A stretch of DNA of 41,745 nucleotides from Megalodesulfovibrio gigas DSM 1382 = ATCC 19364 (GTDB lineage: Bacteria > Desulfobacterota > Desulfovibrionia > Desulfovibrionales > Desulfovibrionaceae): the NCBI RefSeq assembly GCF_000468495.1, contig NC_022444.1, positions 90,485 through 132,229 of the forward strand, read 5' to 3'. Within the stretch, counting starts at the first letter, position 1. Every line of letters starts with the position of its first letter. The translations under genes and the position numbers were made by a program. The notes under the pieces were generated by a model. The model saw only the letters and a program-made list of their open reading frames with translations. It was not told where the DNA came from and made no database searches. This document shows positions 44 to 13,379 of the stretch, piece by piece.

Positions 44-1108
44 TCACTGTGCCTGCTTGCGGGCGTTGACGATGAGCGGGCAGCGCTGGCACACCCGGGC
101 GGCCTGCGCATCGGCAGCGTGCGGATTTTTCAGCAGCCGGCGGGCGGCGCGATAGGCCGGGCCGTTCCAGATCTCCGCAAAGGGCTGCGTCAGGGCATTG
201 CCAAAGTCGTTGGCCAGGGGCCGCACGTCGCTGCAGCAGGGCGAGATACCGCCATCGAAGTTGACAAAGGCCGACCGGTACAGCCAGGAGCAATCCGGCT
301 CCACGTCGGCGGCCTGATCGTCCAGGTTGCGGGGAAACTTGCTGCTCCACCACTGGGCCGGGGCATCTTTCGGGAAAAAGGGCTTGATGAAGCGCACCTG
401 ATCCACGCCCAGCTCCCGGGCCTGTTGTTCGGCCAGGGGAATCTCGTTCTCGTTGAACCCGGTGACGCAGAACTGCCAGTCGATGACCGGCGTGCTGCGA
501 TTGCGCGCCTTTTTCAGGGCCACCAGCCGCCTGATGTTCTCCAGCGCCAGTTCCATGTTCCCCTTGCCCATGAACGTGGCGTAGCTCTCCGGCGTGACGC
601 CGTGGCAGGAGAAGATGAGGACTTCGAGTCCTGAGTCGATGATCTTTTCCGCCAGCAGATCGTCCTTGATATTCATGTTGGACGACACGCCCACGCCGAT
701 GTTCCTGTCCGTGGCGTAGCGGATCATCTCGAAGCCCTCGGGGAACAGAAAGGGCTCGCCAAAGCCGTACATGTTGATCTTGAACAAATACGGCGCCAGT
801 TGATCCACCACATGGCGGAAGTGTGCCGGCTGCATGCGGCCGTAGCCGCGCTCGCCCTCGCTGGGCTGGCGGCGGTTGTCGTAACAGAAGGCGCAATGCA
901 GATTGCAGATGTTGGTGGATTCTATTTTCAGGATGTAGGGGAAGGAGTCCAGCACTTCCGCCTTGCGGCGCATGTTTCGCTCCGTCTTCACCAGATTGAG
1001 CAGCTTGCGCGGCGTGGCGTGACGCAGCACGGCCGCCAGATGGCGCTTGAGGATGCGGAATTTCGTGGCGGCATCCATGCCGCGGGTGGCGAGTCCGGCG
1101 CGAAGCAT
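44..1108 (-). CDS. radical SAM/SPASM domain protein
   Basis: A 354-residue protein, probably a radical S-adenosylmethionine enzyme carrying extra iron-sulfur clusters. The CxxxCxxC motif that binds the SAM-cleaving 4Fe-4S cluster is C68-C72-C75 (CNLHCAFC). A C-terminal SPASM-like region has cysteines near 273, 291, 292, 340 and 343, suitable for auxiliary clusters. The start is supported by AGGAG six bases upstream. SPASM enzymes modify peptides, proteins or small molecules; nothing in the sequence shows the substrate. It lies downstream of a LpxL-type acyltransferase on the same strand, separated by a terminator-like repeat, and close to three more radical SAM genes, so a role in the same pathway is plausible but inferred. 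The 60-residue basic N-terminal extension could mediate membrane or partner contact. Confidence 0.85.
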   Translation of the reverse strand: MLRAGLATRGMDAATKFRILKRHLAAVLRHATPRKLLNLVKTERNMRRKAEVLDSFPYILKIESTNICNLHCAFCYDNRRQPSEGERGYGRMQPAHFRHVVDQLAPYLFKINMYGFGEPFLFPEGFEMIRYATDRNIGVGVSSNMNIKDDLLAEKIIDSGLEVLIFSCHGVTPESYATFMGKGNMELALENIRRLVALKKARNRSTPVIDWQFCVTGFNENEIPLAEQQARELGVDQVRFIKPFFPKDAPAQWWSSKFPRNLDDQAADVEPDCSWLYRSAFVNFDGGISPCCSDVRPLANDFGNALTQPFAEIWNGPAYRAARRLLKNPHAADAQAARVCQRCPLIVNARKQAQ

Positions 1109-1140
1109 AGGCGCTCCTGTGAGTGTTGGCCGTTCGGGCT

Positions 1141-1231
1141 AGGGCACGTTGTTTTTGAAAAGAACTCTCGGGGGAAAACCTTTTGCAAAAGGTCTCCTCT
1201 CTCGCAATGTCCTTTTTCAAAATTCAAATGC
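1141..1231 (+). repeat. dispersed terminator-like repeat, copy B
   Basis: A full-length copy of the dispersed element. It has a central hairpin (ACCTTTTG/CAAAAGGT) and outer arms TTTTTGAAAA and CTTTTTCAAAA that can pair. It fills the gap between the two minus-strand genes and abuts the stop codon of the acyltransferase at 1233. It probably terminates or attenuates transcription from the acyltransferase gene into the radical SAM gene. Confidence 0.65.
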
Positions 1232-1232
1232 G

Positions 1233-2198
1233 CTATGCATCCAGGAACAACGGATCTTCCTTCAGGGCCATGTGCAGGCGAAATGCCAGAAAATACAGAT
1301 AGTGATCCGGCCGTTGCAGGACGTCTTCTTCAAGAATGGAGATGAGCCGCTGCAGATTGCGTTCCAGGACGGCCGTGTCTTTGTCCTTGCGGGGCGACTC
1401 CTCCAGCCTCAGGGCTGGACGAATGCGCAAGGTATTGATGCCCGTGGCCGGGTCCCGCAGCATGGCGCACGGCACCAGGGGCGCGCCGGTGCGCATGGCC
1501 AGGCCCGCCGCGCCGATGGAAAAGAGCGCCCGCCGGCCCAGGAATGTAGCCGGCAACTTGCGCTCGCCGCCGCCGCCATCCACAGCCACGCCCAGCACCT
1601 CCCCGCGCTTGAGGCAGGCGAAGGCTTCCTTCAGATTGCCAAAGATATTGATGTGCTGCACCGGCAGGGAGGCTTCGTGCGCCCAGCGCATCTCCCGTGT
1701 GCGGCGCACCAGGGCGCTGCGGGCCTCGGGCAGGCGCTCGTTGAGCACCCAGGCCGGGGCCGAAAGCTGGCACATGCGGTAGCCCCGGTGGCCGATGGCC
1801 GGCATGATCATCTGGTTGGCCCCGAAGTGTCCGAAGGCCAGGATGACGCCGTGTCCCGCCGCCAGGGCGGCATCCAGGTGTTCCTGCCCCTCCAGCCGCG
1901 TGATGGCCTGGGTCCGCGCCGGGGTGAGCGTGGGAAAGAGCAGCACTTCCACGTCGTTGCAGACAAAGTTCACCGCTGCCTGACGCACCAAGCCCCGCAC
2001 GGTCTCGGGCGGGGTGTTGTTGCCGAGGATGAGCCGCGCGGCTTCCTCCATGCCCCGGCGCTTGCCGCCGGCCACATGATAATAGACGCGGCCCAGCAGG
2101 CGCGCCAGACGCAGGCCCCACGTTGCCGGCAGCAGCCACAGCAGCCGTTTGAACGGGCCCCAGACGGCCCAGAGGGCCATGTCGCGTGCAAGTTTCAT
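1233..2198 (-). CDS. LpxL/HtrB-family acyltransferase homologue, variant active site
   Basis: A 321-residue member of the lipid A biosynthesis acyltransferase family (the lauroyl/myristoyl transferase fold), expected at the inner membrane where such enzymes move an acyl chain from acyl-ACP to a lipid or sugar acceptor. Family features are the hydrophobic basic N-terminus, the GHGVILAFGHFG block and the VDGGGG...FLGRRALF region. The usual catalytic pair is His-x4-Glu/Asp. Here the motif reads HFGANQ, with Gln where the acid should be, so either the mechanism or the substrate differs. The N-terminus is not firmly set because I see no good ribosome-binding site before 2198. The gene is divergent from the B12-radical SAM operon, and a second homologue at 6741 closes that operon, which suggests a shared product. 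Confidence 0.8.
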   Translation of the reverse strand: MKLARDMALWAVWGPFKRLLWLLPATWGLRLARLLGRVYYHVAGGKRRGMEEAARLILGNNTPPETVRGLVRQAAVNFVCNDVEVLLFPTLTPARTQAITRLEGQEHLDAALAAGHGVILAFGHFGANQMIMPAIGHRGYRMCQLSAPAWVLNERLPEARSALVRRTREMRWAHEASLPVQHINIFGNLKEAFACLKRGEVLGVAVDGGGGERKLPATFLGRRALFSIGAAGLAMRTGAPLVPCAMLRDPATGINTLRIRPALRLEESPRKDKDTAVLERNLQRLISILEEDVLQRPDHYLYFLAFRLHMALKEDPLFLDA

Positions 2199-2228
2199 GA
2201 CATGCTGATTTTGATTTGTTTTTTTTGT

Positions 2229-2259
2229 TTGACAACAACCGCCCTTAAGCGCCTATAGT
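2229..2259 (+). promoter_or_regulatory. sigma-70-type promoter of the B12-radical SAM operon
   Basis: TTGACA at 2229-2234 and TATAGT at 2254-2259 are separated by 19 bases inside an AT-rich island in otherwise GC-rich DNA. Transcription would be expected to start around 2265-2267, which is the ATG of the first radical SAM gene. The transcript would therefore be leaderless or nearly so. The spacer is two bases longer than optimal. Confidence 0.6.
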
Positions 2260-2264
2260 GTCGA

Positions 2265-3935
2265 ATGTCGCTCCACTACGCCACCGCGCCCACGGCGTCA
2301 AATGCGGACGGCGCCTCGCCGTCGCCGATGGGTCTTCCGCCGCTGGTCGTCCTTGTCACGCCCACGCCGCCGGATCTGTCCGCCTTCGGCGTGCGCTCCA
2401 TTTCCGCGCACCTGCGACGCAAGGGGCTGCGTACTCGCATCATCTTCCTGCCCGGCAGCCTCGGCCTGCTCAAGCAGGGCGGCACCTTCGTGTATCGATA
2501 CCCCGAGGCGGCCCTGCGCCAGGTGGCGGAACACTGCCGCGGCGCCACGCTGGTCGGCCTCTCCTTCATGACCAACTACCTGGACCGCGCCGCCCAGTGC
2601 ACCCGGGCCATCCAGGAAATCGCCGGCGTCCCGGTCATCTGGGGCGGAGTCCATGCCACCCTGCGTCCTGAGCAGGCCCTTGAATACGCTGACTATGTGT
2701 GCGTGGGCGAAGGTGAAGAGGCCCTGCTGGAGCTGACTGCGGCCCTGACCAGCCAGACCGCCGCCGACGCCATCCCCGGCGTCTGGACCAAGGTGGATGG
2801 CCGCATCCGGGACAACGGCTGCCGGCCCCTCATCGCCGATCTGGACAGCCTGCCCGCGCCGGATGTGTCCAATGTGGAACACTACGTATTGGATCCCATC
2901 CACGAACAAATCATTCCTCTGACCGATGCATTGTATATCGACACCCTGCCCCTGGTGCCATACTACCACAATGCACGCCTGAAAGCCTACCGCATCATGA
3001 CCGACCGCGGCTGCCCGCACCGCTGCAGCTACTGCAATGTGCCGGCGCTGAAAGATAAGTTCGCCGGGGATGCGGTTCCCTATTTCCGGTCCCGCAGTGT
3101 GCCGCACGTCATGGCAGAGCTTGAAGACGCGCTGGCCCGCTTTCCGCAGATCAAGGCCGTACAGTTTTTTGACGACACCTTCTTTGCCCGCCCCGTCACC
3201 TGGCTGCGGGAATTTGCCGAGCAGTATAAAAAACGCATCAAGATGCCGTTCTATTGTCAGGCCAGTCCCACCACATTGACGCAGGAAAAGCTGCGGCTGC
3301 TGATGGATGCAGGCATGGTGTACGTGGAAATGGGCGTGCAGACCGGCTCGCCCCGCATCCGCGCCATGTACGGCCGCAAGGAAAGCAACGCGCAGATTGT
3401 GGCTGGCGCCCGGCTGGTGCACAAGCACGTGCCGCCGCTGCTGCCGCCGCACTATCACGTCATCATGGACAACCCCTGGGAAACCATGGACGATCTGATG
3501 CAGACGGTGCAGCTGCTGCACCAGATTCCCAAGCCCTACGGCCTGGCCATCTCCAGCCTGGTGTTCTTCCCCGGCACGGCCATTGCGCGCAAGGCCATGC
3601 AGGAAGGCATCATCGACGATGAAGAGAAGCAGGTCTTTCGCCAGCCGTTTTACATTCCGCCCACCCGGCATTATCCCGGCTTGCTGCTCTATCTGCAGAG
3701 CTTCATGCACTTTCCGCAGTCCATCATTGCGGTGCTTCTCAGGGAAGGGCCGGTGCGGCGTCTGCTGGAAGGCCGGCCGGCTTGGTTTTATGGGCTGTTC
3801 CACGTGGTCGGGGAGGCCTGCCGCGCGGTGGCCAAGGCCTGGAAACTCATCGCCCGCGGCGACATCTCCCGCATCCGCGCCTGGATAGACCGCCAGCGCC
3901 GGCATGATCCCGTGGTCGCAGGAAGGAAAGGCTAA
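2265..3935 (+). CDS. B12-binding-domain radical SAM protein 1
   Basis: A 556-residue protein with an N-terminal cobalamin-binding Rossmann domain (about residues 25-160, including WGGVHAT and VGEGEEALLEL) followed by a radical SAM domain. The cluster motif GCPHRCSYC places cysteines at 250, 254 and 257. Members of this class (BchE, HpnP/HpnR and P-methylases are well-known examples) do methylations or ring-forming chemistry on unactivated carbon. The DxHxxG corrinoid motif is not visible, as in several members of the class. It is a tandem paralogue of the next gene, with the same domain order and matching motifs. The start is uncertain: ATG 2265 lies at the predicted transcription start with no Shine-Dalgarno site, and ATG 2328 (residue 22) is the alternative. 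The stop overlaps the next start by one base. Confidence 0.9.
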   Translation: MSLHYATAPTASNADGASPSPMGLPPLVVLVTPTPPDLSAFGVRSISAHLRRKGLRTRIIFLPGSLGLLKQGGTFVYRYPEAALRQVAEHCRGATLVGLSFMTNYLDRAAQCTRAIQEIAGVPVIWGGVHATLRPEQALEYADYVCVGEGEEALLELTAALTSQTAADAIPGVWTKVDGRIRDNGCRPLIADLDSLPAPDVSNVEHYVLDPIHEQIIPLTDALYIDTLPLVPYYHNARLKAYRIMTDRGCPHRCSYCNVPALKDKFAGDAVPYFRSRSVPHVMAELEDALARFPQIKAVQFFDDTFFARPVTWLREFAEQYKKRIKMPFYCQASPTTLTQEKLRLLMDAGMVYVEMGVQTGSPRIRAMYGRKESNAQIVAGARLVHKHVPPLLPPHYHVIMDNPWETMDDLMQTVQLLHQIPKPYGLAISSLVFFPGTAIARKAMQEGIIDDEEKQVFRQPFYIPPTRHYPGLLLYLQSFMHFPQSIIAVLLREGPVRRLLEGRPAWFYGLFHVVGEACRAVAKAWKLIARGDISRIRAWIDRQRRHDPVVAGRKG

Positions 3936-5428
3936 TGCGCGTCGTTCTCGTCTCGCCATATCCGGACATCACCAGCTTCGGCCTGCGCTCGCTGTCCGCC
4001 TGGCTGCGGCACCACGGCATCCAGACGCGCTGCATCTTTCTGCCGGACCAGTTCGGCGATGAAGTGGCGGCCCAGCCCGAGCGCTATTCCCCGGCAGTGT
4101 TGCAGGATTTTGTGGAATGCTGCAAGGATGCGGACTTGGTGGGCATCACCCTCATGACCAATTATTTCGACAACGCCCTGCAGCTCACCACGGCCCTGCG
4201 CCAGGCAAGCGCCGTGCCCGTGGTCTGGGGCGGCGTGCATGCCACCATCCGGCCAGAGGAATGCCTGCAGCATGCGGACTTCGTGTGCATCGGCGATGGC
4301 GAGGAAACCCTGCTGGAACTGGCCCAGATCCTGGAGCGCGGCGGGGATCCGTCAACGATCCAAGGCCTGTGGGGCACGCATCAGGGAGACGTCTTCCGCA
4401 ACCCCGTGCGTCCCCTGCCCCCCGGGCTGGACATCTACCCGCCCCCGGACTGGAGCGGGACCGACCATCACATCCTTGCCGGCGACCGTGTGACGCCCAT
4501 GACCGATGACGCCGTGCGCGAGCACCTGACCGGCGGCACCGTTTCAACCTTGCTGGGCAAGATCGGCTATCAGACCATGACTGGTCGCGGCTGCCCCCAC
4601 CGCTGCAGCTACTGCATCAACGACGCCGTGAAGAAGCTCTACGGCGCGCGCAACTATCTGCGCTGGCGCAGCACCAGTCACGTCATGGATGAGTTGGAGT
4701 CCATCATCAGGCAGTTTCCGTTCATCGGCTTCATCTGGATATCAGACGATGCCTTTTTCGGCCGACCCATGCAGGACATCCTGGAATTCTGCCGCGAGTA
4801 CAAGCAGCGCATCGGCCTGCCCTTCACCTGTCTGGCCAGTCCCCTGACCATGCGGGAAGACAAGCTCGCCGCGCTGGTGGATGCCGGTCTTGTGTATCTG
4901 CAAATGGGTGTGCAATCCGGCAGCCCGCATATCCAGGAGCTCTTCAACCGCTCCCGCATGAACAATGCAAAGCTGTTGGAAGCCATGCACATCATCCACA
5001 AATTCCGGGACAGACTGCTGCCGCCGAGCTATGATTTCATCCTGGATGCCCCGTGGGAGACAGATGAAGATCGCCGGGCCTCCCTGGAACTGATCTCTCG
5101 CATTCCAAAACCCTTCAGGCTGCAGCCGTTCTCCCTGGTGCTGTATCCCGGCACGGCCCTGCACGAAAAAGCCACAGCGGAAGGATTGTTGCAAAACGAA
5201 CGGCGCGACGTGTATTCCAAGCACTACACCATGCGCGCGCCGAGCTACTCCAACCTGCTCATTTCCTTATCCAAGACAGGCAAGATGCCCGCCTGGCTGC
5301 TGCGCCTCGCCATCTCCCCCCTGCCCTGGCGCGTGTTCGGATCCCACGCCCTGGAGCCGGTGATCCGCGGCACGTTTCTGGCCCTCAAGCGCCTGAAATC
5401 CATGCTTAAACCCCTCCTCTCCCACTGA
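3935..5428 (+). CDS. B12-binding-domain radical SAM protein 2
   Basis: A 497-residue paralogue of the preceding gene. It has an N-terminal cobalamin-binding domain with WGGVHAT and IGDGEETLLEL at about residues 100-135, then a radical SAM barrel with GCPHRCSYC (C220, C224, C227). Family knowledge points to SAM-dependent methyl transfer or a carbon-skeleton reaction using cobalamin. Its ATG shares a base with the upstream TAA (TAATG), so translation is probably coupled. Differences between the two paralogues are concentrated in the linker between the domains and in the C-terminal 120 residues. This fits successive reactions on one substrate, although that is inference. Confidence 0.9.
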   Translation: MRVVLVSPYPDITSFGLRSLSAWLRHHGIQTRCIFLPDQFGDEVAAQPERYSPAVLQDFVECCKDADLVGITLMTNYFDNALQLTTALRQASAVPVVWGGVHATIRPEECLQHADFVCIGDGEETLLELAQILERGGDPSTIQGLWGTHQGDVFRNPVRPLPPGLDIYPPPDWSGTDHHILAGDRVTPMTDDAVREHLTGGTVSTLLGKIGYQTMTGRGCPHRCSYCINDAVKKLYGARNYLRWRSTSHVMDELESIIRQFPFIGFIWISDDAFFGRPMQDILEFCREYKQRIGLPFTCLASPLTMREDKLAALVDAGLVYLQMGVQSGSPHIQELFNRSRMNNAKLLEAMHIIHKFRDRLLPPSYDFILDAPWETDEDRRASLELISRIPKPFRLQPFSLVLYPGTALHEKATAEGLLQNERRDVYSKHYTMRAPSYSNLLISLSKTGKMPAWLLRLAISPLPWRVFGSHALEPVIRGTFLALKRLKSMLKPLLSH

Positions 5429-5430
5429 CC

Positions 5431-6735
5431 ATGCGCGTACTGCTTGTGCAAAGCTGGCTGGGCGGCGCAGAGCCGCCGGTCTATCCCATCGGTTTGGCCT
5501 GTGTGGCGGCAGCCCTGCCCGGTCACGAGGTGCGCCTGTTTGACCCCAATGTGGAAGGCCCGCCAGACGCACCGTACAGCCCGTTGGACGCCATACTGCA
5601 ACAGTGGAACCCGGACGTGGTGGGTATCTCCCTGCGCAACATCGACTCCACCAACAAGCGTGTGGTGGTATTTTACTATCAGCACTTCCAGGAGTTGCTG
5701 GAATACATCGCCCAGCGCACCAAGGCCCGCATTCTGGTGGGCGGCGCCGGCTTCTCCCTGTTCGCCGAACGCATCATGCACGAGAATCCCGCCATCCACG
5801 CCGGGATCTACCTGGAAGGCGAGCAGACCACGGCTGCGCTGCTGCAGCATCTGGACGCGCCCTGGGCCGTGCCGGGCGTGTACTCCCGGCGCGATGGCAA
5901 AGTCTGCTTCTCCGGACCGCCGGCCAAGATGGACCTGCGCGATTCCCCGGATGTGTTCCGCACCGTCGCCAATGTGGCCCTGTACAACGCCGTGACGCAT
6001 GGCCCGGAGCCCATCGGCGTGGAAAGCAAACGCGGCTGCGCCCTGCACTGCATCTATTGCCCGTACGGGTTTCTGAATGGCCGGGAATACCGCCTGCTGC
6101 CTCCGGAAGATGTGGTTTCGCGCATCGAGACGCTGGTGTCCATGCATGGCATCGACAGATTCACCTTTCTGGATTCCGTGTTCAACATCCCAAAATCACA
6201 TGCGGCGGCCATCTGCGAAGCCATCATCCGCCGCGGCATTCGCGTGCAATGGTCGGCCTGGTTCAGTGAAAAGGAACTGGACAGGGAATTCGCGGAATTG
6301 TGTCTTGCCGCCGGCTGCACCACGTTCATCCTGAGCCCGGACGGCATCACGGACGGCACGTTGCAATCCCTGGGCAAGGTGCAACGTCGGCGCGACATCC
6401 TCAATGCCTGGCGCATGCTGTCCACCCTGGCGCGGGAGCGGGCAGGGTTTGAGGTCAGCTACAATTTCTTCAAGAACCCGCCGGGGCAAACCTGGGCCGG
6501 CTTCCTGCATCTGGTCTGGTTCCTGTTCAGGGCCAAGCTGACGCTGCGCGGCCGCGTGCACTTCGAGGTCAACTCCTTGCGCATCGAGCCCCACACCCGG
6601 CTCTTCGACATCGCCGCGCAGGAAGGCCTGTGCGATGCCTCCACCGATCTGTTGCGCCCGGCCTACTACACGCAACGACGGACTGTCATCATCGAAACGC
6701 TCTGGAACGTTCTCCTCAAGCTCCTTGGGAAATAA
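5431..6735 (+). CDS. B12-binding-domain radical SAM protein 3
   Basis: A 434-residue third member of the operon, more distant from the first two. The N-terminus (MRVLLVQSWLGG...) is a typical cobalamin-binding Rossmann start, and the radical SAM cluster cysteines are C203, C207 and C210 in GCALHCIYC. A B12-domain segment ILVGGAGFSLF precedes it. The gene begins two bases after the previous stop and ends just before the second acyltransferase, so all four plus-strand genes form one transcription unit. Substrate unknown. The SAM-binding GxxxP-type strand and the C-terminal barrel region look complete, so I see no reason to call it broken. Confidence 0.88.
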   Translation: MRVLLVQSWLGGAEPPVYPIGLACVAAALPGHEVRLFDPNVEGPPDAPYSPLDAILQQWNPDVVGISLRNIDSTNKRVVVFYYQHFQELLEYIAQRTKARILVGGAGFSLFAERIMHENPAIHAGIYLEGEQTTAALLQHLDAPWAVPGVYSRRDGKVCFSGPPAKMDLRDSPDVFRTVANVALYNAVTHGPEPIGVESKRGCALHCIYCPYGFLNGREYRLLPPEDVVSRIETLVSMHGIDRFTFLDSVFNIPKSHAAAICEAIIRRGIRVQWSAWFSEKELDREFAELCLAAGCTTFILSPDGITDGTLQSLGKVQRRRDILNAWRMLSTLARERAGFEVSYNFFKNPPGQTWAGFLHLVWFLFRAKLTLRGRVHFEVNSLRIEPHTRLFDIAAQEGLCDASTDLLRPAYYTQRRTVIIETLWNVLLKLLGK

Positions 6736-6740
6736 CCTGC

Positions 6741-7682
6741 ATGCGTACGCGTGAAAGCATTCTGCGAGATGTGCTGCGGCTGTGCATCTGGTATCCCTTC
6801 CGCTGGCTCATCCTGTTGCTGCCACCCATGGCGGGCATATGGTGCATCACCAGACTTGGCGACCTGCACTGCATGCTTTCCAAAGGCAAACAGCGGTGGC
6901 TGCATGACAACCTGACCCGCCTGCAGCCGGACATCGCCCCAGACAAGGCCCGGCAGGAAGTCCGGCGCTACCTGCGCGTGCACTATCTGAACCAGCTGAG
7001 TATCTTTGTGTTTCCCTCCCTCACCCCGGCCGCGCTCGGCAGGCTGCTTGCCTGGCGCGGGCTGGAGCATCTGGAGGCCGCCCTTGCCCAGGGCCGCGGT
7101 GTGGTGCTGGCGCACCCGCACTTCGGACCGGTGCACCTGCCGTTGTTCGCCCTTGGGACATTGGGCTACGCCGTCAAACAGATCGGCAAGCCCAGCGACG
7201 AGGGGCTGTCCTGGATCGGCAGAAATGTCGCCTTCCGCCTGCGACTGCGCTACGAGGGCAGGATGCCTGCGGAGATCGTCCCCGTCGGAAGCGACTACCG
7301 CCGCGTGTTCAGGCATCTGAAGGAAAACAACCTCGTCATGATCACGGCGGACGGCGCGGGAGACATGGCCATGCATGGCCGCCATGAGCCCCTGGAGTTT
7401 TTCGGCCACACCATGCATTTTCCCCTGGGCGCGGCGAGTCTTGCCCTGCGGACAAACGCAGTGCTGCTGCCCCTCTTTGTGCATCCCGGCGCGCACACGC
7501 CGTGGCAATGCACCATTGAAGCCCCCATCACCATGCCCGCCGATGCAGACGCCGCAACGGCAGCCAGCTTCGCCGCACGGGAATTTGTCGCCCGCTACAC
7601 ACCATACGTGGCGCAGTGGCCGGGCTGCATGCATTTTCTGGACACCTTCGCGCCCGGGCTCCACATCATCCCGAAGGCATGA
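6741..7682 (+). CDS. LpxL/HtrB-family acyltransferase homologue 2, variant active site
   Basis: A 313-residue lipid A acyltransferase-family protein with an N-terminal membrane-associated segment (about residues 14-36), then the HFGPVH block and a conserved ADGAGD...FFGHTMHFPLG region. I chose ATG 6741, five bases after the preceding stop, because the alignable family region starts there; an upstream in-frame ATG at 6630 lies inside the previous gene. As in the homologue at 1233-2198, the catalytic His is present but the acid five residues on is replaced, here by His. It is the last gene of the B12-radical SAM operon and ends 10 bases from a convergent glycosyltransferase gene. Function is probably acylation of, or binding to, the product made by the radical SAM enzymes. 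Confidence 0.8.
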   Translation: MRTRESILRDVLRLCIWYPFRWLILLLPPMAGIWCITRLGDLHCMLSKGKQRWLHDNLTRLQPDIAPDKARQEVRRYLRVHYLNQLSIFVFPSLTPAALGRLLAWRGLEHLEAALAQGRGVVLAHPHFGPVHLPLFALGTLGYAVKQIGKPSDEGLSWIGRNVAFRLRLRYEGRMPAEIVPVGSDYRRVFRHLKENNLVMITADGAGDMAMHGRHEPLEFFGHTMHFPLGAASLALRTNAVLLPLFVHPGAHTPWQCTIEAPITMPADADAATAASFAAREFVARYTPYVAQWPGCMHFLDTFAPGLHIIPKA

Positions 7683-7692
7683 TGGCGTCCCG

Positions 7693-8811
7693 TCACGCTG
7701 TGCCAAGCACCTGCGCATAGACGCCAAGCACCTGCGCCGCCATGCCGCTCCAGGGAAATCTGGCTGCATGGGCCAGGCCGTTGGCCGTCATGCGTTCCCG
7801 AAGTGCTGCATCACCGAGTACAGTGCCCATGGCCTGGGCCAGCGCGTCCACATCGTGCGGGTCCACCATGATGCCGGCGTCGCCCACGGCTTCCGGCACT
7901 GCAGTGACGTTGGAGGCGATCACCGGCACCCCGCTGGCCATGGCCTCGGTGATGGGCATGCCGAAGCCCTCGCCATAGCTGGGATACACAAAGGCTGTGG
8001 CGCCGTTGTACAGGTATGGCAGATCCTCCTGCGCCACGCCGCCCGTAAAGATGATGCGCTCATGCTGTCCCATGGCCCTGGTGCTGTGGTAATACTCCGG
8101 CAGCATGGGATCCATCATGCCGGCAATGACCACCTTGCACGGCAATTCACGCCGCTGGTGCAGCAGCAGCGCCGCCTTGATGATCGACTGGATGTTCTTG
8201 CGCGGTTCGATGCGTCCCACGTACAGCAGATAGTCGCCGTCTATCTTGTACTTCGACTTGACCCGCGCCACCTGTGCGGCATCGGTGCGGGGCCTGAATT
8301 CGTCGGATACCCCGGGATACACGACCTCGATCTGCCCGGCAGGCACATTGTACTTCGTCATCACCTCCATCTTGGTGTACTCGGAGAGCGCAATGACCTT
8401 TGCCGCCTTTCGTGCACTGAGGGGATATAGCAGCGACATGAGACGACGGATTTTCCGCGGGTAGAATTGCGGGTACGTCTCGTGCAAGATGTCATGCAGC
8501 GACACGACATACGGCATGGCAAGGCGGAATGGCGCGATGTATTGCACGTGCAGCAGATCAATCCCGCTTCTCTTACACTGGCGGGGAAATGCCGTCACGA
8601 GTCGTTTGATCCGGGACAAGGGCATCGACTCAACAGCAACACGCCCTCCAAAATCATGCTGCGCAAATTCCGCATGCGCTTCTTCGGGGACATAAAAGAC
8701 GAAGTCACCCGCTTGCGAAGATCGCGCAAGGTGCATCGCCATTTGATACATATACGTTTTGGACCCTTGCATGAGATGATGCACCGTATGCAGGTCAATG
8801 CCTATCCGCAT
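7693..8811 (-). CDS. GT4-family glycosyltransferase
   Basis: A 372-residue GT-B fold glycosyltransferase of the group 1 (GT4) family, which transfers sugar from a nucleotide-sugar donor, typically in lipopolysaccharide or exopolysaccharide synthesis at the cytoplasmic face of the inner membrane. Visible features are the N-terminal MRIGIDLHTV start with a glycine-poor acceptor domain, YVGRIEPRKN at the interdomain hinge, and the donor-binding EGFGMPITEAMASG (E-x7-E type) followed by VPEAVGDAG. I chose ATG 8811 because a GAGG lies five bases upstream and homology starts there; a longer reading frame from 8916 is unlikely. The last 15 residues contain a duplicated AQVLG segment encoded by a 15-bp direct repeat. 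Confidence 0.88.
   Translation of the reverse strand: MRIGIDLHTVHHLMQGSKTYMYQMAMHLARSSQAGDFVFYVPEEAHAEFAQHDFGGRVAVESMPLSRIKRLVTAFPRQCKRSGIDLLHVQYIAPFRLAMPYVVSLHDILHETYPQFYPRKIRRLMSLLYPLSARKAAKVIALSEYTKMEVMTKYNVPAGQIEVVYPGVSDEFRPRTDAAQVARVKSKYKIDGDYLLYVGRIEPRKNIQSIIKAALLLHQRRELPCKVVIAGMMDPMLPEYYHSTRAMGQHERIIFTGGVAQEDLPYLYNGATAFVYPSYGEGFGMPITEAMASGVPVIASNVTAVPEAVGDAGIMVDPHDVDALAQAMGTVLGDAALRERMTANGLAHAARFPWSGMAAQVLGVYAQVLGTA
7702..7737 (-). repeat. 15-bp direct repeat at a gene 3' end
   Basis: GCCAAGCACCTGCGC occurs at 7702-7716 and again at 7723-7737. The unit spacing of 21 bases keeps the reading frame, so it is a seven-codon duplication at the C-terminus of the glycosyltransferase. It probably arose by slippage. 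Confidence 0.7.
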
Positions 8812-8996
8812 CGTGGCCTCGCGCAGTGTGAAGGTTGCACAACCAGTCCGCCATGTCCCGACGGCTGCCCCGCGCAACCTAGCACCAGCCGTTGCGGAAA
8901 GGAAGCCTCCCGCCATTTCCGCCCCCTGCTGCGGCGTTTGCTTCCGTCCCGCTTTCTGCTACACCGCCGGGAGACGTCTTCACCGCGGAGCCTTGC

Positions 8997-11900
8997 ATGT
9001 CGTTTGTTCATCTCCATTGCCACACGGAATACTCGCTGCTGGACGGCGCCATCCGGATCAGGGATCTGGTGGCCCAGGCCAAGGCGCATGGCGCGCCGGC
9101 CGCGGCCATCACGGACCATGGCAACCTCTATGGCGCGCTGACTTTTTACACCCAGTGCCAGAAGGAGGGCATCCAGCCCATCCTGGGGTGCGAAGTGTAT
9201 GTGGCCGGCAAGGAGATCGATCATACCAACCGCGATCCCGAGCACGCCCGCAGCCGGCATCACCTGGTGCTGCTGGCCAAGAACGAGACCGGCTGGCAGA
9301 ATCTGGTCAAGCTGGTGTCCATCGGCCACCTGCACGGGTTCTACCACAAGCCCCGGGTGGACCTGAAGCTGCTTTCCCAATACAATGAAGGCCTTGTGGC
9401 GCTTTCGGCCTGCCTGGCCGGGGCGGTGCCCAGGGCCATGCTGCGCCAGGGCATGGACGCGGCCATCCAGACCGCCAGGGACTATGCCGCCATCTTCCCG
9501 GGCCGTTTTTTCCTGGAGGTCCAGGCCAACGACCTCCCCGAACAGGCCCGGCTGAACACGAAGCTCATCGAACTGGCGGACGTGCTCAAGCTGCCGCTCA
9601 TCGCCACCAACGACTGCCACTACCTGACCAAGGAGGATGTGGACGCCCACGACGTCCTCCTGTGCATCCAGACCGCCGCCTGTGTGGACGATCCCAAACG
9701 CATGCGCTTCGAGACGCGGGATCTCTATTTCAAAAGCCCGGAGGAGATGCGCGCCGCCTTCCCGCATTGCCCGGAAGCCATCGAAAACTCCCTGCGCATT
9801 GCAGACATGTGCCATGTGAAGCTGGACCTGAAGAGCCACCACTTCCCGCGCTACGAACTGCCCGAGGGCAGCACCGTGAGCGAGGAATTCCAGCGGCTGG
9901 CCCGGGAAGGTCTGGAATTCCGGCTCAAGCGGATGCCCTATGCCGTGGACCAGGAAGCCTACCGTGAGAGACTGGAAACGGAGCTGCAGGTCATCGGCGG
10001 CATGGGCTTCGAGGGCTACTTCCTCATCGTGCAGGATTTCATCAACTGGGCCAAGGACCACGGCATTCCCGTGGGGCCGGGGCGCGGCTCGGCGGCCGGC
10101 TCGCTGGTGGCCTGGGCGCTGAAGATCACCAACATCGATCCCATCCCGTACAACCTGCTGTTTGAACGGTTTCTGAATCCCGAACGCGTGTCCATGCCCG
10201 ATATTGACGTGGATTTCTGCGAACGCCGGCGCACGGAGGTCATCCGCTACGTCAGCGAGAAATACGGCAGCGATTCCGTGGCGCAGATCACCACCTTCGG
10301 GACCATGAAGGCCAAGGCGGTCATCAAGGACGTGGGCCGGGCGTTGGGCATGAGCTTTGCGGAGACGGACCGCATTGCCAAGCTCGTTCCCGACGATCTG
10401 AAGATGACCCTCAAGAAGGCCCTGGAGCAAAGCCAGGATCTGGCCGCCCTGCAGGCCGGGGATGCGCAGATTGCCCGGCTGCTCAATGTCTCGCAGCGGC
10501 TGGAGGGCCTGTGCCGCCACGCCTCCACCCATGCCGCGGGCGTGGTCATCGGCGACCGGCCCCTGTCGGACCGCCTGCCCCTGTACCGCGGCAAGCGCGA
10601 GGAAATCGTCACCCAGTTCGACATGAAGATGGTCGAGAAAATCGGCCTCATCAAGTTCGATTTCCTGGGCCTGCGCACCATGACCGTCATCCAGGACACC
10701 CTGGACAGCATCGGCCGCCAGGGCGCGCCCGTGCCGGATCTCGACGCCCTGCCCCTGGACGACGCCAAAGAGGAAACCTGGAAGCTCTTTCAGCGCGGGG
10801 AGACGGACGGCATCTTCCAGGTGGAATCCTCAGGCATGCGCAAGTACCTGCGCATGCTCAAGCCCACCTGCTTTGACGATCTCATCGCCATGCTGGCCCT
10901 GTACCGGCCCGGGCCGCTGAACTCGGGCATGGTGGATGAATTCATCAACCGCAAGCACGGCAAGGTGGCCGTCACCTATCCCTGGCCCAGCCTGGAGGAG
11001 TGCCTCAAGCCCACGTACGGCGTTATCGTGTATCAGGAACAGGTGATGCAGATTGCGCAGATCGTGGCCGGGTACACCCTGGGCGGCGCGGATCTGCTGC
11101 GCCGGGCCATGGGCAAGAAAAATGCCGAGGAGATGGCCAAGCAGCGGGCCATCTTTGTGGAAGGCGCGTCCAATAATGGCGTGCCCCAGAAAACAGCCAA
11201 CGAAATTTTCGACTTGATGGAAAAGTTTGCGGAGTACGGCTTCAACAAGTCCCACTCCGCGGCCTATGCCCTGGTTTCGTACTGGACGGCCTGGCTCAAG
11301 ACGCACTACCCGGCCGAGTTCATGGCCGCCCTGATGACCTCGGAACTTGGCAACCAGGACAAGCTGCTGCAGTACATCGCCGCCTGCAAGGACATGAAGG
11401 ACGCCCAGGGCCGGCCCCTGGAGGTGCGCCCGCCGGACGTGAACGCCTCGCGCCGGGAATTTTCCGTGCGAGAGAACGTCATCTTCTTCGGGCTGGGCGG
11501 GGTCAAGAACGTGGGGGACGAAGCCATCAACTCCATCGTGGCCGCCCGCGAGGCCGACGGGCCGTTCACCAGTCTGCTGGATTTCCTCATCCGCATCGAC
11601 CTGCGCAAGGCCAACAAGCGCGTGCTGGAAAGCCTGATCAAGTGCGGGGCCCTGTGCAGCCTGGGCGCCACCGAGCGCGCGCTGTTCGAGTCCCTGGAAC
11701 AGGCCGTCGCCCGGGCCCAGAAAAAGGCCAGGGAGAAGGACGACGCCATCGTTTCCCTCTTCTCCCTCACCCCGGCCACGGAAGCGCCGCCGCCCATGCC
11801 CGGCGTGGGGTTCGACTGCCCCGAGGCCTCCCTGCCGGAGTGGCCGGCGGAAATCCTTTCCCGGTACGAAAAGGAGGCATTGGGCTTCTTTTTGTCCAAC

Positions 11901-12512
11901 CATCCGCTCATGCCCTTCCGCCGCCAGTTGCAGCGCCTGCAACTCACGCCCCTGGAGGAGTGTCGCGGCATGTCGGACCGTCGCCAGGTGCGCGTGGCGG
12001 CCATGATCACCTCCATCAAGGAGCACCTGACCAAAAAGGGCGACAAGATGGCCTTCTGCCAGATCGAGGATCTGGGCGGCTCGGCCGAGGCCACCTTCTT
12101 CCCCCGCACCTACGAGGCCGTGAAGGCCCTGCTGCTGGAGGAAAAGCCCCTGCTCCTCACCGCCCTCATTGACGACAAGGACGGCGCCGCCCAGGCGCAG
12201 GGCGAATCGTCCGATGACGACGCACCCTCGACCACCGTAAAACTCCTGGTGGAGGAAGCGAAGCTCCTGGAACTGGCCGTGGCCGCCTGCACCGAGCCCG
12301 TGCGCCTGCAGTTGCCCGCCAACCGGCTGGAGCACGGCGGCCTGGCCGCCTTCAAGGCCCTGCTCCAGGAACATGAAGGCGACACCCCCGTGCGCCTGCG
12401 GCTGCTGCTGGACACCTGCGTCTGCGACTTTGAACTGGACGATCGCCTGACCGTGGACCCCACCCCGGCCTTCGAACTGGCCATGGACCGATTCTGCAAA
12501 GGACTTTCCTGA
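8997..12512 (+). CDS. dnaE: DNA polymerase III subunit alpha
   Basis: The 1171-residue replicative polymerase catalytic subunit, close to the 1160 residues of the E. coli enzyme. An N-terminal PHP domain starts at once with HLHCHTEYS. The palm carries D402-x-D404-x-D406 (PDIDVDF) and the third metal ligand D555 in KFDFLGL, matching the E. coli positions almost exactly. The finger, beta-binding and helix-hairpin-helix region follows, then a C-terminal OB fold (about 990-1070). ATG 8997 is preceded by GGAG with six bases of spacing and places the PHP motif at the very N-terminus, so the longer in-frame extension to 8892 is rejected. It leads a short operon with queD and dtd. Confidence 0.98.
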   Translation: MSFVHLHCHTEYSLLDGAIRIRDLVAQAKAHGAPAAAITDHGNLYGALTFYTQCQKEGIQPILGCEVYVAGKEIDHTNRDPEHARSRHHLVLLAKNETGWQNLVKLVSIGHLHGFYHKPRVDLKLLSQYNEGLVALSACLAGAVPRAMLRQGMDAAIQTARDYAAIFPGRFFLEVQANDLPEQARLNTKLIELADVLKLPLIATNDCHYLTKEDVDAHDVLLCIQTAACVDDPKRMRFETRDLYFKSPEEMRAAFPHCPEAIENSLRIADMCHVKLDLKSHHFPRYELPEGSTVSEEFQRLAREGLEFRLKRMPYAVDQEAYRERLETELQVIGGMGFEGYFLIVQDFINWAKDHGIPVGPGRGSAAGSLVAWALKITNIDPIPYNLLFERFLNPERVSMPDIDVDFCERRRTEVIRYVSEKYGSDSVAQITTFGTMKAKAVIKDVGRALGMSFAETDRIAKLVPDDLKMTLKKALEQSQDLAALQAGDAQIARLLNVSQRLEGLCRHASTHAAGVVIGDRPLSDRLPLYRGKREEIVTQFDMKMVEKIGLIKFDFLGLRTMTVIQDTLDSIGRQGAPVPDLDALPLDDAKEETWKLFQRGETDGIFQVESSGMRKYLRMLKPTCFDDLIAMLALYRPGPLNSGMVDEFINRKHGKVAVTYPWPSLEECLKPTYGVIVYQEQVMQIAQIVAGYTLGGADLLRRAMGKKNAEEMAKQRAIFVEGASNNGVPQKTANEIFDLMEKFAEYGFNKSHSAAYALVSYWTAWLKTHYPAEFMAALMTSELGNQDKLLQYIAACKDMKDAQGRPLEVRPPDVNASRREFSVRENVIFFGLGGVKNVGDEAINSIVAAREADGPFTSLLDFLIRIDLRKANKRVLESLIKCGALCSLGATERALFESLEQAVARAQKKAREKDDAIVSLFSLTPATEAPPPMPGVGFDCPEASLPEWPAEILSRYEKEALGFFLSNHPLMPFRRQLQRLQLTPLEECRGMSDRRQVRVAAMITSIKEHLTKKGDKMAFCQIEDLGGSAEATFFPRTYEAVKALLLEEKPLLLTALIDDKDGAAQAQGESSDDDAPSTTVKLLVEEAKLLELAVAACTEPVRLQLPANRLEHGGLAAFKALLQEHEGDTPVRLRLLLDTCVCDFELDDRLTVDPTPAFELAMDRFCKGLS

Positions 12513-12513
12513 C

Positions 12514-12906
12514 ATGACGGACACCTGGCGCCTCAGCGTCACCCGCGAATTTGCCGCCTCCCACTGCCTGCGGCACTACCAGGGCAAGTGCGAGCAGCTC
12601 CACGGCCACAACTTTTCCGCACACGTGGTGGTGGAAGGCCACACCCTGGATCCAAAGGTGGAAATCCTCATGGACTTCGGGGATCTGAAAAAGTGCACGG
12701 ATCAGGCCCTCGCCGCGCTGGATCACCGACATCTCAATGAGGTGCCGCCCTTCGACCGCCTGAATCCCTCCTCGGAAAATCTGGCCCGCCACATTTTCCA
12801 CACCCTGACGCCGCTGCTGGCGGCCTTTCCGGTGCGGCTGGTGTCCGTGACGGTCTGCGAAAAACCCGGCCAGTGCGCCAGTTACAGCCCCACGGGCGCG
12901 TTCTGA
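12514..12906 (+). CDS. queD: 6-carboxy-tetrahydropterin synthase (QueD/PTPS family)
   Basis: A 130-residue protein of the 6-pyruvoyl-tetrahydropterin synthase family. QueD converts dihydroneopterin triphosphate to 6-carboxy-5,6,7,8-tetrahydropterin, the first committed step to queuosine and other 7-deazaguanines. Zinc ligands are visible as the His of FAASH and both His of LHGHN. The catalytic Cys is in KCEQLHGH, the Asp-His pair is in LDHRHLNE, and the pterin-anchoring Glu is in CEKPGQ. It starts one base after the dnaE stop and overlaps dtd by one base. No other queuosine genes are in the window, so a different pterin role cannot be excluded. Confidence 0.92.
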   Translation: MTDTWRLSVTREFAASHCLRHYQGKCEQLHGHNFSAHVVVEGHTLDPKVEILMDFGDLKKCTDQALAALDHRHLNEVPPFDRLNPSSENLARHIFHTLTPLLAAFPVRLVSVTVCEKPGQCASYSPTGAF

Positions 12907-13379
12907 TGCGCTTGTTGCTGCAGCGTGTGCGCCACGCCAGCGTGCAGTGCGAGGGCCGGGAAGTCTCGTGCATCGGGCCGGGCCTGCTGGTGCTGGCCGG
13001 CTTCGGCGCGGCTGACGGCCCGGAGCTGCCGGCCACGAAATCCTGGCAGACCATATTGAAAAAACTCGTCAGTCTCCGTATCTTCCCCGATATGGCGGGC
13101 AGGATGAACGAAGACGTGTTGCAGCACGGCGGGCAGCTGCTGGTGGTGTCCCAATTCACCCTGTACGCGGATTTGCGCAGCGGCCGGCGGCCCTCTTTTT
13201 CCAACGCCGCACCGCCCCAGACAGCCCGGGCGCTGTACGACACGTTGCTGACGGATCTGGACGCCCTGGCCCCGGGCCGCGTGGCCGGCGGCGTCTTTGG
13301 CGGCGACATGGACGTGACCCTGCTGAACTGGGGACCGGTGACCATGCAGCTGGATTCCGCCGACTTCGCCGGCCCGTAA
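12906..13379 (+). CDS. dtd: D-aminoacyl-tRNA deacylase
   Basis: A 157-residue DTD protein that hydrolyses D-aminoacyl-tRNAs (and Gly-tRNA-Ala) to recycle tRNA and protect translation. The N-terminus MRLLLQRV, the catalytic SQFTLYAD motif near residues 82-89 and the C-terminal NWGPVT carrying the cis-Pro proofreading dipeptide are all present. Length matches the family (about 145-155). Its ATG overlaps the queD TGA (TGATG), so I reject the longer frame starting inside queD. It is the last gene of the dnaE-queD-dtd operon. Confidence 0.95.
   Translation: MRLLLQRVRHASVQCEGREVSCIGPGLLVLAGFGAADGPELPATKSWQTILKKLVSLRIFPDMAGRMNEDVLQHGGQLLVVSQFTLYADLRSGRRPSFSNAAPPQTARALYDTLLTDLDALAPGRVAGGVFGGDMDVTLLNWGPVTMQLDSADFAGP

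Follow-up and report, generated by a model that had tools for sequence, protein, structure and literature searches.

What kind of molecule calls for several radical S-adenosylmethionine (SAM) enzymes together with two acyltransferases? The question is raised by seven genes at positions 44-8811 of a 41,745-nucleotide stretch of Megalodesulfovibrio gigas DSM 1382 (hereafter D. gigas; contig NC_022444.1, positions 90,485 to 132,229), the whole of which we refer to as the window. Among sulfate reducers, D. gigas is a textbook organism, and, to our knowledge, a requirement for several radical SAM enzymes is established for few lipids of bacterial membranes or surfaces. On balance, we consider it probable that these genes form the core of a conserved anaerobic pathway of the Wzx type for an acylated, radical-modified surface glycolipid or glycan. 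Domain calls on all seven open reading frames (ORFs) lie above Pfam curated cut-offs:

44-1108, minus strand: SPASM-domain radical SAM enzyme (PF04055 and PF13186; motif CNLHCAFC)
1233-2198, minus strand: LpxL/PatA-like acyltransferase A, or LpxL-A (PF03279, 77 bits; motif HFGANQ, PatA alignment)
2265-3935, plus strand: B12-binding radical SAM enzyme a (PF02310 and PF04055)
3935-5428, plus strand: B12-binding radical SAM enzyme b (PF02310 and PF04055)
5431-6735, plus strand: B12-binding radical SAM enzyme c, BzaD/TIGR04072-like (PF02310 and PF04055)
6741-7682, plus strand: LpxL/PatA-like acyltransferase B, or LpxL-B (PF03279, 72 bits; motif HFGPVH)
7693-8811, minus strand: GT4-family glycosyltransferase (PF00534/PF13439), convergent with the operon of a, b, c and LpxL-B

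ORFs and Pfam domains thus agree with a sequence-only reading of the window, which had placed seven genes of these classes here in this orientation. That reading had also described the plus-strand genes as fused into one tight operon, of which the tightness holds (a overlaps b by 1 base, b and c are 2 bases apart, and c and LpxL-B 5), but not the fusion, as the genes merely abut. The divergent halves, with LpxL-A and the SPASM gene on one side and gene a on the other, are 66 bases apart, and the GT4 gene ends 10 bases from LpxL-B. Genes a and b are paralogous (~43% identical), and a, b and c all carry the radical SAM CX3CX2C motif (CPHRCSYC, CPHRCSYC and CALHCIYC, respectively) and qualify as B12-dependent radical SAM enzymes (B12-rSAM).

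Conservation beyond close relatives had been set beforehand as the test on which the sequence-only reading could fail, and it passed: the same order recurs in other genera and families, so the cluster is more than chance. In the nearest named relative, a Desulfovibrio metagenome-assembled genome (MAG; W18), gene order is identical at 66-90% identity; apart from this sister MAG, a contig scan with gene a returned only two remote loci, both holding B12-rSAM paralogues. A profile of genes a and b detected adjacent a-b pairs in distant Desulfobacterota families, and the core, made up of LpxL-A, a, b, c and LpxL-B, recurs as a group in five families of this phylum. The neighbourhoods that were read show all five genes together in G350 and G309 (both family f90), G414 (f58) and G446, the last a member of the Desulfovibrionaceae; much of the set is also present in G067 (f10) and G423 (f49), with more divergent acyltransferases. 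Within the Desulfovibrionaceae, the set is carried by 17 of 288 genomes, belonging to genera g1 (2), g25 (14) and g41 (1). One further genome, G546 (genus g10), was excluded from this count, having only a B12-rSAM paralogue of 32% identity and no acyltransferase. All 14 g25 species examined have the set; the b-c-LpxL-B unit is retained there, with gene a usually several kilobases (kb) off, and G025 and G057 have LpxL-A at a locus of its own. An all-against-all comparison of 17 genomes found a/b-type and c genes in every one and the acyltransferases in 16. Gene b is 51-57% identical across families, gene c lies directly 3' of b in most loci read, and in a tree of genes b and c the Desulfovibrionaceae copies group together (support 0.915). 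That the core stays together in different families and throughout the 14 g25 species counts in favour of the proposed pathway, as does the repeated nearness of GT4 genes and acyltransferases, with GT4 orthologues (39-44%) inside the G446 cluster and near the cluster in G645, G653, G648 and G642.

Two arrangements were seen alongside these. Eight g25 genomes have a CheX-like gene next to gene a or gene b (e.g., L026 7834-8448 and L100 6836-7444), and a Candidatus Fermentibacteria MAG (L031 6648-13123) has three tandem a/b-type B12-rSAM genes plus a fourth, with no acyltransferases nearby.

Which further genes belong to the set? Just upstream of the window, D. gigas encodes a Wzx-type flippase (PF01943) and a type I phosphodiesterase (PF01663), separated from the window by ~820 bases upstream of the SPASM gene that read N and whose content is unreadable (L003 11666-12485, to the window's left edge). 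G645 and G642 have orthologues of the two close to gene a, which we count toward the pathway. The SPASM enzyme is fused to a flavin adenine dinucleotide (FAD) amine-oxidase-like domain in G025—also counted in favour—and the two genes are neighbours in G057, G446, G645, G644 and G653. The D. gigas orthologue of this FAD oxidase (47-48%) lies at a second locus, at C2:3175.5 kb, where a DUF362 ferredoxin and then an AMP-ligase come after it and genes of the WbaP, Wzy, GT2 and phosphodiesterase types are found in the surroundings; this adjacency, and the company it keeps, likewise speak for the pathway. Several g25 genomes have the AMP-ligase at a distance of 1-2 kb from gene b, and L053, L055 and L058 have DUF362 ahead of an HpnJ-like B12-rSAM (B12d). 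A third D. gigas locus, at C2:3105 kb, has B12d (58%) next to a lipoprotein of the Wza type (Poly_export/SLBB) and a weak match to Wzz, which again favours surface export, and a lipoprotein-Wzz pair of the same type lies near LpxL-A in G057. Several g25 clusters include HldE, an epimerase and an SIS protein, with the appearance of heptose-activation genes, and GT9 genes join the cluster in other families. In D. gigas, at least five radical SAM enzymes therefore belong to a set spread over three loci. The seven-gene composition proposed earlier stands, but the set is larger, with Wzx, phosphodiesterase, FAD oxidase, DUF362 ferredoxin, AMP-ligase and a fourth B12-rSAM added.

The export-type genes bear on whether the product stays on the surface. 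A diffusible small lipid natural product would fit the patchy distribution of the cluster, and sets of several radical SAM enzymes are common in natural product clusters. We nonetheless find this quite improbable, given the nearby Wzx, phosphodiesterase and Poly_export genes and the retention of the set in every g25 species; because export-type genes adjoin several members, a surface glycolipid or glycan is favoured. Of the two products suggested by the sequence-only reading, an envelope lipid or a small natural product, the linkage to acylation, glycosylation and export supports the former, while the diffusible alternative is disfavoured by those same export-type genes. Wzx/Wzy surface polysaccharide pathways offer the closest parallel in this respect, as D. 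gigas has a Wzx flippase, glycosyltransferases and WbaP-, Wzy-, Wzz- and Wza-like genes. The D. gigas set differs from them in adding five radical SAM enzymes, the FAD oxidase, DUF362, the AMP-ligase and two PatA-like acyltransferases, and in being dispersed over three loci. A flippase, an initiating transferase, a polymerase/ligase and an outer-membrane export lipoprotein are all present in D. gigas, split over these loci, and may serve a common product.

From gene content, conserved linkage, motifs and the lack of detectable lipid A and LPS (lipopolysaccharide)-export genes, all of them observed, we infer the chemical steps, substrates and product as follows. The AMP-ligase of the second locus would activate an acid, probably a fatty one, and a lipid-linked sugar would be built by glycosyltransferases (the window's GT4, plus GT2 and the WbaP-like transferase elsewhere). 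The two PatA/LpxL-like enzymes may then esterify sugar hydroxyls through a His124/Asp207 relay, the B12-rSAM enzymes may methylate or rearrange unactivated carbons in the sugar or acyl part, and the SPASM enzyme and FAD oxidase could carry out a coupled redox step. The Wzx-type flippase and phosphodiesterase would move and release the product, and the Wza/Wzz/Wzy-type proteins would extend or export it. A pathway of this composition, or a Desulfovibrio without LPS, is not described in the literature searched, which left out most subscription papers; the sequence-only reading had likewise known of no such pathway. The conserved grouping of five radical SAM enzymes with export-type genes and acyltransferases points to a class of anaerobic lipid or glycan that has not been seen before.

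Do the radical SAM enzymes themselves point to a known lipid? The HpnJ likeness of B12d (TIGR03471, a hopanoid-associated B12-rSAM), together with the GT2 gene and DUF362 that accompany it in other families, would suggest that the enzymes modify a bacteriohopanepolyol head group. B12d scores 411 bits (L053 copy), however, below the HpnJ cut-off of 577.6, with a and b reaching just 83 bits and c 34, and no squalene-hopene cyclase or other hpn gene was seen in the loci read, the only part of the genome covered for the cyclase; a hopanoid-linked role is in our view clearly unlikely. The top curated match of gene c is BzaD (TIGR04385, B12 lower-ligand biosynthesis; 278.5 bits), from which it differs in falling below the cut-off of 450 and in having no other bza gene at the locus. 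Gene c also matches the ladderane-associated B12-rSAM TIGR04072 (217 bits), which would fit a ladderane or polyunsaturated-hydrocarbon type of fatty-acid pathway. In Kuenenia and Desulfotalea clusters, such B12-rSAM genes are linked with phytoene-desaturase-like FAD proteins and fatty-acid synthases (Rattray 2009, PMC2649909), and those clusters share with the present one the combination of B12-rSAM, amine-oxidase-like FAD protein and radical SAM genes. Gene c is nevertheless under the TIGR04072 cut-off of 360, and the cluster loci, unlike ladderane-type clusters, have no match to ketosynthase or dehydratase (tblastn with L092 queries) or to MMPL, making this origin very improbable; we count the lack of these genes toward the surface glycolipid or glycan.

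The L092 queries come from a separate cluster (G016:C27:18001-38000, 3420-13129), also found in L091 (G010), with a ketosynthase, three B12-rSAM genes, an LpxL-like gene and GT2, as well as apparent MMPL and LolA-type genes; it resembles aryl-polyene or ladderane-type clusters.

What, then, do the two acyltransferases acylate? With 77 and 72 bits against a cut-off of 22.3, both are PF03279 proteins, the only ones in D. gigas, which would allow them to be lipid A enzymes (LpxL/LpxM) in a cluster that modifies LPS. Their best scores against curated LpxL/LpxM models, however, reach 53 bits against a cut-off of 248, and both lack the acid of the HX4(D/E) motif (HFGANQ in LpxL-A, HFGPVH in LpxL-B). 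All 12 canonical LpxL proteins compared from the family carry an HxGxWE-type motif, whereas the cluster-type copies all read HFGANQ, HFGPVH, HFGPTQ or similar, without the acid. The best NCBIfam match of both is the phosphatidylinositol mannoside (PIM) acyltransferase PatA (NF005919; 57.8 and 76.6 bits, below the cut-off of 209), and PatA structures (PDB 5F2T/5OCE) are the top solved-structure match. The HX4D acid of PatA (D131) has a structural role, its alanine mutant retaining 37% activity, and the catalytic relay consists of H126 and E200, which the authors suggest also holds for HtrB and MsbB (PMC4792965). The cluster acyltransferases have Gln or His at the D131 position, and no PIM pathway is seen at the locus, but they retain both the His and an acid at the E200 position: His124 and Asp207 (LpxL-A numbering) are invariant and align with H126 and E200. 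This match, with D131 being only structural, makes acyltransferase activity plausible despite the missing acid, and we count the His/Asp dyad in favour of the acylated product. An AlphaFold2 model of LpxL-A built from two sequences had a mean pLDDT (predicted local distance difference test) of 49 and supports no claim.

The genome argues further against lipid A. D. gigas has no match to LpxC, LpxK, LptD or canonical LpxL, with LpxA, LpxB, LpxD and WaaA not searched, and LpxJ (PF04028), considered as a substitute acyltransferase, is also absent. Strong LpxC, LpxK and LptD matches appear in most sampled relatives, so the Lpx/Lpt models work in the Desulfovibrionaceae. As D. gigas is without detectable lipid A genes, LpxL-A and LpxL-B are not lipid A enzymes there, and a lipid A locus was rejected on the same grounds; the LPS-modifying alternative is thus strongly disfavoured and extremely improbable. 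The label "LpxL-type" given by the sequence-only reading survives as a family assignment, but not as a lipid A function. The D. gigas genome paper makes no mention of LPS (PMC4287179).

These absences raise the question of what covers the D. gigas outer membrane, for which the cluster is a testable candidate. In a stronger form of the surface glycolipid reading, the product would be the main outer-leaflet glycolipid, standing in for lipid A in D. gigas and the apparently LPS-less g25, g1 and g41 lineages. Besides the missing Lpx/Lpt genes of D. gigas and the heptose-activation-like genes of g25, this is suggested by the distribution of LpxC, which is detected in 160 of 288 Desulfovibrionaceae and undetected in all 17 cluster-positive members (Fisher's exact p = 5e-7 counted by genome and 0.012 counted by genus; shared ancestry inflates both). 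Against it, the cluster coexists with LpxC and LptD in G350, G309, G414, G067 and G423 from other families, ~111 LpxC-negative relatives, some of them incomplete genomes, lack the cluster, and the independent lineages are few (3 genera). The cluster is therefore not simply "the" LPS replacement, and strict replacement was dropped as the best explanation, with LpxC and LptD being kept in cluster-positive families elsewhere. It is a candidate for LPS replacement in the cluster-positive Desulfovibrionaceae lineages only, and we regard even this as rather unlikely; if true, five radical SAM and two PatA-like enzymes would make an LPS surrogate of a new chemical class.

Across the Desulfovibrionaceae, 128 of 288 genomes (86 of 205 good ones) have no detected LpxC, with LptD and full-strength LpxK usually undetected too where sampled. 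Loss of LPS thus seems common in the family, and mostly where the cluster is missing. One LpxC-negative relative (L093, G005:C92:50001-70000) has no PF03279 protein and several B12-rSAM genes among glycosyltransferase-type genes.

Several points weigh against the pathway we propose. Gene-to-gene distance correlations are mixed (r 0.05-0.85), and the claim of co-inheritance consequently rests on gene order. With the D. gigas set split over three loci, membership of the second and third depends on linkage in relatives, and the polysaccharide genes near them could serve an unrelated capsule. The D. gigas Wzz match lies below the Pfam cut-off, and the product and enzyme activities of the set are predictions from the genes.

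Beyond the GT4 gene, an ORF within 8892-12512 resembles dnaE by sequence and marks the start of an apparently unrelated stretch. Finally, we observed a short intergenic element, TTTTTGAAAA ... GGGAAAACCTTT, repeated between D. gigas genes, at 1152-1190 of the window, at L003 5303, 11610 and 13637, and at L089 16174 and 17431, which is often read through into spurious ORFs.

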